DNA of 64,000 nt from Blastococcus sp. HT6-4 (GTDB lineage Bacteria > Actinomycetota > Actinomycetes > Mycobacteriales > Geodermatophilaceae): contig NZ_CP155551.1 of assembly GCF_039679125.1 (NCBI RefSeq), positions 2,170,001 through 2,234,000 on the forward strand. Direction: 5' to 3'. A model generated the notes under the pieces. That model made no database searches. It was not told the DNA's origin and worked only from the letters and a program-made list of their open reading frames with translations. Positions 60,547 to 64,000 of this stretch are shown here, piece after piece; within the stretch, counting starts at the first letter, position 1, and the number at the start of each line of letters is the position of its first letter. The translations under genes were made by a program, and so were the position numbers.

Positions 60547-61346
60547 GCGCGGCAGGGCTCGCCGCCCGGACGGCGGGACCGGCGGGGACCGAACCGGGGA
60601 CGGCGACCGTCCTCGCCCGCGCGGCTGCTGCCGAGTGGCTGCGGCTGCGCACGGTGCGGACGACGTGGTGGTGCCTGCTGGCCGCCGCGGGAACGATCGT
60701 GGGCATCGGCGCCGTCATGGCGTTCGACGTCCGGGACGTGACGGCGTCCGGCGAGTTGCCGCCGGCGACGGCGGCCGGAGAGTCCGGCCTGCTGCTCGGG
60801 CAGTTCGCCCTGCTGGTGCTCGCGCTGCTCGCGGTCACGCAGGAGTACGCGAGCGGGTCGATCGGCCCCACGCTGCAGTGGACGCCGCGCCGCGGGGTGC
60901 TGCTCGCCGCGCGGATCAGCGTGCCGGTCCTCGTCGCCACGGTGGCCGGGGTGCTGCTGGCGCTGATCGCCGACGTCACCGCCTGGCTCATCGCGCCGGA
61001 CCTGGCGCTGTCGGTCGCCGACCTGGCCGACAGCCTCGGGCGGATCGCCGCGGTGCTGGTCGCCGGAGGCGTGCTCACCGTCGGCGTCGGCCTGCTTCTG
61101 CGCAGCACCGCCGGCGCGCTGGCGACGGTGTTCCTGCTGCAGCTCGTGCTGCCGTTCCTGCTGCCCGCGTTCGGGGTCGCCTGGATGAGCGACACCGGCA
61201 AGCTCTTCCCCGGGTCCGGGGCCGTCTGGACGCTGCTCGGAGAGCCGGACATGACGGCGGCGGCGGCGACGTCCCTCCTGGTGGGCTGGGCCGCGGTGGC
61301 GCTGGCAGCGGGTGGCTGGTCCCTGCTCCGCCGCGACGCGACCTAG
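60543..61346 (+). CDS. ABC-2-type exporter permease
   Basis: A 267-residue membrane protein with about six helices (LRLRTVRTTWWCLLAAAGTIVGIGA opens the first). EYASGSIGPTLQWTPRRGVLLAARI is the conserved first-loop motif of ABC-2 permeases that pair with BcrA-like ATPases. The GTG start overlaps the ATPase stop (GTGA). Substrate unknown. The gene ends at TAG. Confidence 0.92.
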   Translation: MSAAGLAARTAGPAGTEPGTATVLARAAAAEWLRLRTVRTTWWCLLAAAGTIVGIGAVMAFDVRDVTASGELPPATAAGESGLLLGQFALLVLALLAVTQEYASGSIGPTLQWTPRRGVLLAARISVPVLVATVAGVLLALIADVTAWLIAPDLALSVADLADSLGRIAAVLVAGGVLTVGVGLLLRSTAGALATVFLLQLVLPFLLPAFGVAWMSDTGKLFPGSGAVWTLLGEPDMTAAAATSLLVGWAAVALAAGGWSLLRRDAT

Positions 61347-61458
61347 CGGGCGGCGGACGCACCCCACCCCCGAGGGTGACGCCGCACGGACCCGGCCCGG
61401 CGTTCCTCAAGCTCCGCCGTCGGCGACCGATGGAGGTGGTACGGCCAGAGGAGGCACG

Positions 61459-62940
61459 GTGTCGAACATTGAGCGGAGCAGGACCACTGCGGGGCGGCGG
61501 AGCTGGGGGCCCCTCGTGATCTCCGGCGTGCTGGTCGCCGTCATGGGCGTGCTGGGGCTCGCCTCCACCCGGCACGCCGGCGAGCTGGCCGTCGACCAGC
61601 ACCGGGAGGACCGGATCCAGCACGCGCGGGTCCTCGGCCAGCTCACGTCCCAGACCGTCCGCGACGGCTTCAACCAGTTGGCCTCGGTCCTGGCGGTGCA
61701 GGCGAGCGCGGGAGTGCCCGCGTTCAGCGCCACGCCGGCGACCGGCGCCGTCGCGGACCGGGACAGCGAGCGAATCCGGAAGTTCGTGGTCAGTTCCGGC
61801 GACGCGATGAACCGCGGTGCGGCCGTCATCAACCGGCTCGGCCAGGTCGTGACCGCCTACGCGCCGACCGGTGAGCAGGCCTCGGCCGACGACCCCGGCC
61901 TCCGTCCGCTCGTCGCGGCGCTCGGCGAGGGCGGTCCGGATCGCCTTCCGCTGTCCGGCATCCTGCAGATCGGGGACGAGCCCGCGGTCGCGCTCGGGGC
62001 GCCCGTGACGCTCTCCGACGGGAGCACCGGGTTGTTCATCTGCGCCTGGGCCGCCCGGGACACCTCGACCGAGTTCTTCACCGCCGGCGAGGGCGAGGGC
62101 TGGATCGTCGACGAGGCCGGGCTCGTGGTCGGCGCCGCCGACACCCGGGTGATCGGCTCGGCGTTCCCCTACCCGCAGGCGCTCGCGGCCGCGCGGTCCG
62201 GTGGTGACCACGGCATCGTGGACACGACCGAGGACGGGACCGACTACGTCACCAGCTGGCAGCAGGTCGCCGGGACGACGTGGCTGACCCTGAACGTCCA
62301 GACGAAGGAAGGCTTCCAGGGGCACCTGGACCGAGCCGCGCTGCGCACCGAGATCCTGGTGCTCGCCATGCTGCTGATCACCGGCACCGCGCTGGTCGTC
62401 ATGAGCCGCCGCCGGGAACGGGCCATGGCCGTCATCGCCTCGACCGACGAGCTGACCCGGATCCACAACCGGCGGGGGTGGTTCGAGCTGGCCGAGCGGG
62501 AGCTCGCCCGCGCCGCCCGGAACGGCGAACGCCGGCTGGCGGTGTTCATCGACCTCGACGGCCTCAAGCAGGTCAACGACGTCCTCGGGCACGAGGAGGG
62601 CGACCGGGCCATCGCGTCGGCCGCGACGGTCCTCCGGGCGGCCTGCCGGTCGGGCGACGTGGTCGGCCGGCTCGGCGGTGACGAGTTCGTCGTCCTGCTC
62701 GGCGACGGCGCCGACGAGGCGGTGGTCCGGCAGCGGTTGGCCGCCGCCCTCGACGACTTCAACGCCGGATCCAGCGCCGCGTTCGAGCTCCGCTTCTCCA
62801 TCGGCGCCGAGGCGTGGGACCCGCAGCACCCCTGCTCGGTGGAGGACCTGGTCCGCCGCGCGGACGAGCGGATGTACGCCGACAAGCAGTCCCGCACCGA
62901 TCGCTACGTCAACCTGATCCGGGTGCCGGCGAAGGTCTGA
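61459..62940 (+). CDS. Membrane diguanylate cyclase (GGDEF)
   Basis: A 493-residue signalling enzyme that makes cyclic di-GMP from two GTP. A first membrane helix (about 18-36), an extracytoplasmic sensor region of about 260 residues with a Cache-like pattern (GWIVDEAGLVVGAADTRVIGSAFPY) and a second helix (about 297-314) lead to a GGDEF domain. The active site is intact, GGDEF at 406-410, and the inhibitory site RSGD (397-400) stands exactly five residues before it. The GTG at 61459 follows GAGGAGG. Its last 32 bp overlap, antisense, the end of the UGSC gene. Confidence 0.94.
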   Translation: MSNIERSRTTAGRRSWGPLVISGVLVAVMGVLGLASTRHAGELAVDQHREDRIQHARVLGQLTSQTVRDGFNQLASVLAVQASAGVPAFSATPATGAVADRDSERIRKFVVSSGDAMNRGAAVINRLGQVVTAYAPTGEQASADDPGLRPLVAALGEGGPDRLPLSGILQIGDEPAVALGAPVTLSDGSTGLFICAWAARDTSTEFFTAGEGEGWIVDEAGLVVGAADTRVIGSAFPYPQALAAARSGGDHGIVDTTEDGTDYVTSWQQVAGTTWLTLNVQTKEGFQGHLDRAALRTEILVLAMLLITGTALVVMSRRRERAMAVIASTDELTRIHNRRGWFELAERELARAARNGERRLAVFIDLDGLKQVNDVLGHEEGDRAIASAATVLRAACRSGDVVGRLGGDEFVVLLGDGADEAVVRQRLAAALDDFNAGSSAAFELRFSIGAEAWDPQHPCSVEDLVRRADERMYADKQSRTDRYVNLIRVPAKV

Positions 62941-63469
62941 CGCCGTCCGGCTGCGCGGTCGCGGTGACGGCGGCGACCACGGCCGGGTACGCCCGCTCGG
63001 CGGCCGCCCGCAGCTCCGCGTCCGTGCGGTCCTGCACCGGGTGCGGGACGAGCACGCACGGCGCGGCGAAGCCCAGCGCCGCACCCTGCTGGCGGGCGGC
63101 CTCGGCGAACGCCTCGCTGGCGAGGAACACCCCCACCACGCCCCGACGCTCCAGATCGGCGATGTCGTGCACACTGCACGACGTGCACGAGCCCTAATCG
63201 GCCAGTGCCTCGATGACCACCTCGCACTGCTCGGCGATCTCGTGCCGCAGGTCGACCGGGGCGGTGCGGGCGAACGTGGGCTTGCGGTAGCGGCGGACGA
63301 CGGCGCCGTCGGCGGCCAGCAGCTCCTCCAGACGGTCCAGGACCACGTCCCCCCGCGCCTTGCTGATGTCGAGCAGCCCGACGCTGCGGCCGCGCAGCGA
63401 CGCCGGGCGGGGCAGCAGTTCCCGGGCGGAGGTCCGCCGTTCGCCGGTCGGGTCCAGGACGGTTCTCAT
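62909..63469 (-). CDS. UGSC-family selenoprotein with selenocysteine encoded by UAG (amber)
   Basis: Read through one in-frame TAG (63196-63194, codon 92), this frame gives a 186-residue protein in one piece. Codons 1-91 end in CEVVIEALAD. The amber codon follows, and then GSCTSCSVHDIADLERRG continues to a TGA at 62909. UGSC-family proteins carry Sec-Gly-Ser-Cys at precisely this place, or Cys in Sec's stead. The residues after the TAG start with Gly-Ser-Cys, so the amber codon occupies the Sec position. A perfect 8-bp hairpin lies 11-29 nt past it. Sec on UAG has been reported for Geodermatophilus and Blastococcus. A conventional annotation would split this gene at 63194. The function of the family is unknown; a redox role is inferred from the U-x-x-C arrangement. 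The ATG overlaps the upstream gene's stop (ATGA). Confidence 0.85.
63164..63182 (-). promoter_or_regulatory. Probable bacterial SECIS hairpin
   Basis: In the mRNA, GUCGUGCA (63182-63175) and UGCACGAC (63171-63164) form a perfect 8-bp stem with a GUG loop, or 7 bp with loop AGUGU. The loop starts 18-19 nt after the amber codon and has a G among its first two bases. This agrees with the general rules for bacterial SECIS elements (loop about 16-37 nt from the Sec codon). A weaker outer pairing GGC (63193-63191) with GCC (63160-63158) could extend it. Confidence 0.75.
63194..63196 (-). other. In-frame amber codon at the selenocysteine position
   Basis: Plus-strand CTA, minus-strand TAG, codon 92 of the UGSC gene. 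It is flanked by conserved coding sequence in the same frame on both sides (EALAD before, GSCTSC after), so it is not a frameshift and not a natural end of the protein. Confidence 0.85.
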
Positions 63470-64000
63470 GCGCGCACCTCTCTGGTCACCGGGACGCTCC
63501 CGGTCTCCCCCGCCACCCAGCCCCCGACGACGGCGCTGAACAGACCGGCGTCGCCCCCCGCGTGCAGGACGAGCAGGCCCCCGGGCCGGAACTTCGGCAG
63601 CTCGGCCGCCTCGATCCCCGCGGGCACGCCCTCGGCCATGCCACCGGCCCCGCGCACCAGCTCGCCGACGGGGAGGGTGAGCAGGCCCTCGAGCTCGGCC
63701 AGCAGCCGCGCACGGTCCCAGCCCGCCTCGCGGAAGACCCGGCCGTGCTCCGGCGAGACGACGAGCATCGCGTCGAACGCCATCGGCAGCTTGGGGTGGG
63801 CGTTGACCCGCAGGCAGGCGGCGAACGTGCGCGCGAGCGACTCCGGGTCCCGGCTGAGCTGGTCGACCACCGGCTGCACCCCGGAGCCGGCGAAGACGGT
63901 CACCGCGTCACCGGGCACCCCGCGGTCGGCCGCCAGCGGGGCGAACGGGCTGTCCTCCTCGCGCTCGGCGAAGCAGAAGGTGAGCTTGCCCGGGTTGCCC
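63466..64000 (-). CDS. Unrecognised partner protein upstream of UGSC gene (5' end outside window)
   Basis: At least 177 residues of an open frame that continues past the window edge. It reads from GNPGKLTFCFAEREEDSPF through VTVFAGSGVQPVVDQLSRD, RVNAHPKLPMAFDAMLVVSPEHGRVF and FRPGGLLVLHAGGDAGLFSAVVGGWV. I do not recognise the family. There is no membrane segment or signal in the visible part; the His, Asp and Gly-rich patches suggest an enzyme. Its TGA overlaps the ATG of the UGSC gene in an ATGA arrangement, so the two are translated together and probably function together. Confidence 0.75.
   Translation of the reverse strand, partial: GNPGKLTFCFAEREEDSPFAPLAADRGVPGDAVTVFAGSGVQPVVDQLSRDPESLARTFAACLRVNAHPKLPMAFDAMLVVSPEHGRVFREAGWDRARLLAELEGLLTLPVGELVRGAGGMAEGVPAGIEAAELPKFRPGGLLVLHAGGDAGLFSAVVGGWVAGETGSVPVTREVRA

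Follow-up and report, generated by a model that had tools for sequence, protein, structure and literature searches.

An in-frame UAG as a probable selenocysteine codon in a UGSC-family gene of Blastococcus sp. HT6-4, and the setting of UAG-encoded selenocysteine within Geodermatophilaceae

Blastococcus sp. HT6-4 carries a UGSC-family gene whose reading frame is interrupted by a single TAG, and we consider the finding real and the TAG correctly interpreted as a codon for selenocysteine (Sec), with a probability of roughly 0.95. The gene lies in a stretch of 64,000 nucleotides (positions 2,170,001 to 2,234,000 of NZ_CP155551.1), referred to here as the window. Its frame runs from an ATG to a TGA, and the TAG at codon 92 is the sole internal stop; the product would have 186 residues by read-through, compared with 91 if the TAG terminates. 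Gly-Ser-Cys follows directly after the TAG (TAG-GGC-TCG-TGC), which would place Sec at the head of a U-G-S-C motif. With the TAG entered as Cys, the read-through protein matches PF24696 'UGSC' with 145 bits over residues 3-169 (Pfam cut-off 25) and NF041046 'UGSC family (seleno)protein' with 146.1 bits (NCBIfam cut-off 125). It is the one UGSC gene found in the genome. The initial annotation of this DNA had described the gene as it is entered in Table 1, and its coordinates, the frame, the position of the TAG and both product lengths were all reproduced. At the 3' end the gene shares 32 bases with a convergent ORF (61312-62940, plus strand), which we take to carry a GGDEF motif. Annotation under the standard code truncates the UGSC gene, together with the formate dehydrogenase (FDH) genes discussed below, at the TAG.

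Table 1. Locations of the genes and elements discussed in the text (window positions unless a contig or locus is named)
Feature	Location	Strand	Remarks
UGSC-family selenoprotein gene	62909..63469	(-)	186 residues with UAG read as Sec
Putative Sec codon (in-frame TAG)	63194..63196	(-)	residue 92, motif U-G-S-C
Candidate SECIS hairpin GUCGUGCA-GUG-UGCACGAC	63164..63182	(-)	begins 11 nt after UAG
Upstream partner gene	63466..64000, continuing past the window edge to about 64863	(-)	465 aa
tRNA-Sec (selC), anticodon CTA	contig C1:1309686-1309777		RF01852 65.7 bits (gathering score 47)
UCA selC and AhpD-like gene of Geodermatophilus G058	L080:1169-2154 (G058:C17)

Is the interrupted frame a genuine coding sequence? 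A scan of named genomes returned 356 UGSC relatives, and in the best 80 of these, which were kept, the xGSC site holds TAG in 28 genes, TGA in 52 and nothing else; with our own gene added, the set comprises 81 genes, 29 with TAG and 52 with TGA. All 28 TAG relatives are titled Blastococcus or Geodermatophilus, as is none of the 52 TGA relatives. Judged from their codon substitutions, both halves of the protein are under purifying selection: across the 29 TAG genes (our own included) dN/dS is 0.33 before the TAG and 0.21 after it, or 0.23 after it when the first ten codons are left out, which argues that the C-terminal half is not decaying. A stop at exactly the codon 92 site in 80 of 80 kept relatives and purifying selection on both halves thus indicate that the frame is a product neither of chance nor of decay. 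The initial annotation had placed the TAG exactly at the Sec position of the family, had proposed that homologs be inspected at codon 92, and had named decayed 3' halves in sister strains as evidence that would speak against it. The first of these claims stands, since every kept relative has TAG or TGA at this site; homologs carry TGA or Cys codons at the aligned position, and the 3' halves are intact. Among more distant UGSC loci, of which 40 were examined and 22 could be read, 17 have TGC (Cys) and five have TAG; the TGC loci are found both within Geodermatophilaceae (L018-L025) and elsewhere in the class (L204-L212). The remaining 18 loci were missed by the site pattern, and 13 of them hold a TAG according to the UGSC scan of the family's genomes.

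The genome, a single contig of 4.30 Mb, encodes a tRNA-Sec with the matching anticodon. A search with the tRNA-Sec model RF01852 yielded nine matches, two of them above the cut-off. One is the selC of Table 1, whose CTA anticodon is directly observed; the other, at 48.2 bits, was identified by ARAGORN as a tRNA-Ser with anticodon TGA and is described better by the general tRNA family. Six further matches were read by ARAGORN as tRNA-Ser, -Tyr, -Leu and -Met, and a TCA anticodon occurs in none of the eight (of nine) matches that it read. The selC gene sits between selD, which lies upstream and is divergent, and selA, with selB behind selA; the profile matches of selD, selA and selB reach 387.8, 423.3 and 288.2 bits against NCBIfam cut-offs of 125, 267.9 and 242.25, respectively. 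This locus bears out what had been predicted from the window, namely a tRNA-Sec with a CUA anticodon somewhere in the genome and, with it, selA, selB and selD; the opposite outcome considered at the time, a tRNA-Sec with only a UCA anticodon, did not materialize among the matches read. Two FDH alpha genes of the same genome each contain one TAG, followed by His, inside the frame of the family match, so that the two families searched account for three genes with TAG at the Sec position, one UGSC and two FDH. A crude prediction of genes in the window gave 39, of which 32 end in TGA, six in TAG and one in TAA. UAG therefore remains in use as a terminator, and read-through has to be confined to particular sites.

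How might UAG specify Sec at one site and termination at others? By extension from the established course of bacterial Sec insertion, we envision that Sec would be made by SerRS and SelA on the tRNA-Sec with anticodon CUA, with selenophosphate supplied by SelD, and that SelB would deliver the Sec-tRNA to a UAG that is singled out by a hairpin some 11 nucleotides downstream. Sec insertion at this UAG would compete with release factor 1, and ordinary genes would still be terminated by UAG. Read-through would yield the UGSC selenoprotein of 186 residues, which probably acts as a redox enzyme together with the thioredoxin-like protein encoded just upstream. Constraint at synonymous sites is directly visible where such a hairpin would act. 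Across the TGA set of 52 genes, the codons from +4 to +10 after the stop have 0.05 synonymous differences per synonymous site, the median being 0.70, and no lower value occurs among the 108 seven-codon windows; across the TAG set of 29 genes, which are closely related, the same codons have 0.057, the median being 0.307, and rank sixth of 108. The favoured codons at these positions are identical in the two sets. A near-frozen synonymous stretch of this kind is as expected if it held a SECIS signal, and we read the hairpin GUCGUGCA-GUG-UGCACGAC as a putative SECIS. The centroid fold contains this hairpin; the minimum-energy fold pairs differently, and the folding energy is about what the base composition alone would give (z -0.25).

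The likely activity of the protein is suggested by its neighbour. The TGA of the upstream gene overlaps the ATG of the UGSC gene, and of the 70 relatives for which 1400 nt or more of upstream sequence is available, 67 carry a homolog of this partner immediately before UGSC, the exceptions being L161, L171 and L191. The N-terminus of the partner contains the motif CPTC and resembles thioredoxin weakly, in matches that stay below threshold; no family was matched above threshold. An AlphaFold2 model of the UGSC protein (mean pLDDT 86.1, 24 sequences) consists of alternating strands and helices and places the Sec site at residue 92 between a strand (84-90) and a helix (93-108), and the fold matches of the model are of a generic alpha/beta type, for example flavodoxin, receiver and B12-binding domains. 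UGSC and its partner would most likely act as a pair in a redox reaction that depends on selenium.

Could the TAG have a meaning other than Sec? Under the standard code it is an in-frame stop, and the gene might accordingly be a pseudogene broken by a nonsense mutation. We regard this as exceedingly improbable, given that a stop (TAG or TGA, depending on lineage) occupies the same codon in every kept relative, that dN/dS remains low behind it, and that a selC with the matching anticodon is present in the genome. Alternatively, UAG might be read as another amino acid, be it pyrrolysine or one inserted by an ordinary amber suppressor. ARAGORN names the CTA tRNA 'tRNA-Pyl', presumably from its anticodon, but the tRNA scores well above the gathering score of the tRNA-Sec family RF01852 and sits among selD, selA and selB, and the aligned codon of homologs is TGA or Cys. 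Moreover, it has a long variable arm, unlike tRNA-Pyl, in which the available text of PMC7609411 gives this arm three nucleotides. Decoding by pyrrolysine or a suppressor is, in our view, very improbable as well.

It is also conceivable, if unlikely, that Sec is inserted at the TAG as a minor and selenium-dependent event, with the TAG serving as a regulated stop and the 91-residue protein as the main product. Insertion of Sec at UGA is described as competing with release factor 2 (PMC8124441, from the portion of the article available), and UAG still ends genes in the window, both of which would fit such a scheme. Yet the U-G-S-C motif is conserved and the C-terminal half is constrained, which implies selection on the full protein. 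UAG-encoded Sec in a full-length UGSC protein is the reading that we carry forward.

Where did the Sec codon change? Of 112 Geodermatophilaceae genomes, 101 match the core of the CUA-type tRNA-Sec; seven others (genera g5, g6 and g7) have a single tRNA-Sec match with the anticodon TCA, and in four no tRNA-Sec match was obtained. The wider comparison was a class survey of 394 genomes, drawn from a larger group and including our own genome and one congener, which gave 102 tRNA-Sec matches, two of them from Geodermatophilaceae. Outside the family, all 30 selC loci that were read have TCA; they are the best-scoring 30 of the 102 matches, a choice by score that favours the usual UCA type. One genome of the survey, G386, has two tRNA-Sec matches (76 and 66.8 bits). 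The CUA tRNA-Sec of HT6-4 and the UCA tRNA-Sec of G072 are identical at 87 of 95 positions. Because UCA genera occur within the family, because UCA is found outside it, and because the two types of tRNA match so closely, the UGA-to-UAG change appears to lie inside Geodermatophilaceae. A change of the anticodon from UCA to CUA takes two substitutions, and a route via UUA, which reads UAA, would spare the Trp codon UGG.

The selenoprotein genes were surveyed in the same genomes. UGSC matches occur in 54 of the 112 Geodermatophilaceae genomes, and of these 95 matches, 72 contain one TAG, 23 no stop and none a TGA. In the class survey, 23 of 394 genomes have UGSC matches; outside Geodermatophilaceae, one match has a TGA and none has a TAG. 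As for FDH in the family's genomes, at least 45 of the matches listed have one TAG, and one has a TGA (G079). The latter, L107 (G079:C12:812469-814946), is an FDH fragment covering model positions 208-1004, with the TGA inside the match, and the selC of G079 is of the CUA type. The TGA may stem from a pseudogene, a frameshift or another cause.

The history of the UGSC gene itself seems to be more intricate. In the protein tree of the 81 UGSC rows, well-supported branches require at least three changes of codon label, and a single origin of TAG in this gene tree is unsupported. A large TAG clade comprises 25 TAG rows and one nested TGA row, L145, in a 19-row branch supported at 100/99, and a second TAG clade consists of four Geodermatophilus rows adjoining two TGA MAGs (Frankiaceae and Frankineae). 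Such mixed clades raise the possibility that the codon changed on transfer of the UGSC gene from one lineage to another whose code differed. L145 is known from a single MAG contig (JAOPWW010000043.1 of Frankiales MAG RYN_184), a TGA UGSC gene within the Blastococcus/Geodermatophilus TAG clade; it is placed as if the Sec codon had changed back after transfer.

Might a single cell use both codons? In the Geodermatophilus genome G058, a CUA selC (locus L083) lies beside genes read as selD, selA and selB, and the FDH and UGSC genes contain TAG. G058 also has a second selC with the anticodon TCA, which at 81.8 bits is the highest among the Geodermatophilaceae matches listed. About 0.3 kb from it, a 192-codon AhpD-like frame contains a TGA in the motif CFY-stop. 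This frame exceeds the cut-off of TIGR01926 'peroxidase-related enzyme' (112.6 bits against 81.8); NF041238 AhpD_rel_CFYUT was considered as its family and rejected, the match of 51.8 bits lying far under the cut-off of 175. AhpD-like selenoproteins with a CxxU motif are already known, as far as the accessible part of PMC2398784 describes them; G058 resembles them in its CFY-stop motif, and uses UGA despite a CUA selC in the genome. Alternatively, the TGA may be a nonsense mutation from TGG. Of 233 homologs, 120 were listed, and at this site 59 of the 120 have Trp, 58 have Cys and one has Leu, with two unread; 58 of the 59 Trp rows come from JGI alone, from which some Cys rows also derive, and JGI gene calls may read TGA as Trp. 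The 112 Geodermatophilaceae genomes contain no other close copy of the gene, the next match having 40% identity.

The surroundings of the UCA selC in G058 are of a different base composition from the remainder of its contig. The stretch from 1 to 6 kb of C17 has 59-65% G+C, compared with mostly 71-82% beyond 30 kb, and further in the contig belongs to the genus (77% identity to G041 over about 2.4 kb). Two plasmid records, from Tsukamurella and Arthrobacter, match over the UCA tRNA among the 20 records listed of 30. On both plasmids (L224 and L225), selB, selA, an unannotated tRNA-Sec and selD lie together, with the tRNA between selA and selD, and adjoin genes annotated as nrfD and a 4Fe-4S protein; by its typing, the plasmid from Arthrobacter is conjugative. 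The grouping of sel genes on plasmids, one of them conjugative, means that Sec decoding may be mobile. The entry of a mobile UCA selC into a UAG-coding host would be the simplest reading of G058, and its sequence suggests two Sec codons, UAG and UGA, in one cell. From an abstract perspective, the Sec codon of Geodermatophilaceae may have switched wholesale from UGA to UAG, with at least one Geodermatophilus (G058) later regaining, on a stretch of low G+C, a tRNA-Sec that reads UGA along with a selenoprotein gene that uses this codon; one cell would then use both codons, apparently sharing SelA and SelB, and UGSC genes would seem to change their Sec codon when passing between UGA and UAG lineages. 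To this scenario as a whole we assign about even odds. Bacteria with two tRNA-Sec genes have been reported, the text available of that report making no statement on differing codons (PMC5330540), and a limited literature search turned up no bacterium reported to employ UAG as well as UGA for Sec. The possible dual-code genome G058 is thus the newest lead of this work, and deserves follow-up.

How does the window relate to known systems? Mukai et al. reportedly proved in 2016, by labelling, that selenoproteins are synthesized at UAG in Geodermatophilus and Blastococcus. The phenomenon is already published for Geodermatophilaceae, and the window shows a further member of a known system. That one stop codon can replace another as the codon for Sec is the published view, and our findings agree with it. 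They place such a swap within a single bacterial family, in which genera with a UCA selC occur next to genera with a CUA selC, and this makes the reassignment of a Sec codon directly testable. The use of both UAG and UAA as Sec codons in some species is mentioned in the accessible part of PMC10778597, and a 2026 review includes the UGSC family, the mentions of UAG for Sec in its available sections being of the engineered kind (PMC13188914). In the UGSC-containing selenoprotein family as described earlier, Sec is located in the UGSC motif (PMC2398784, available part); the gene of HT6-4 belongs to this same family (PF24696, NF041046), but its Sec codon would be UAG, not UGA. The closest counterpart is the UAG-decoding Sec system of Geodermatophilus and Blastococcus, for which the available text reports three Geodermatophilaceae genomes with a CUA tRNA-Sec and FDH and UGSC-motif selenoproteins, as well as a UAG-containing AhpC in Blastococcus saxobsidens (PMC5330540, citing Mukai et al., 2016). 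The system of HT6-4 is alike in the bacterial family, in the CUA tRNA-Sec and in the presence of UAG in FDH and UGSC genes. To this, our analysis adds a further genome, a count across the whole family, the recognition of genera within it that have UCA, the partition of TAG and TGA over 81 genes, and the near-frozen stretch downstream of the codon.
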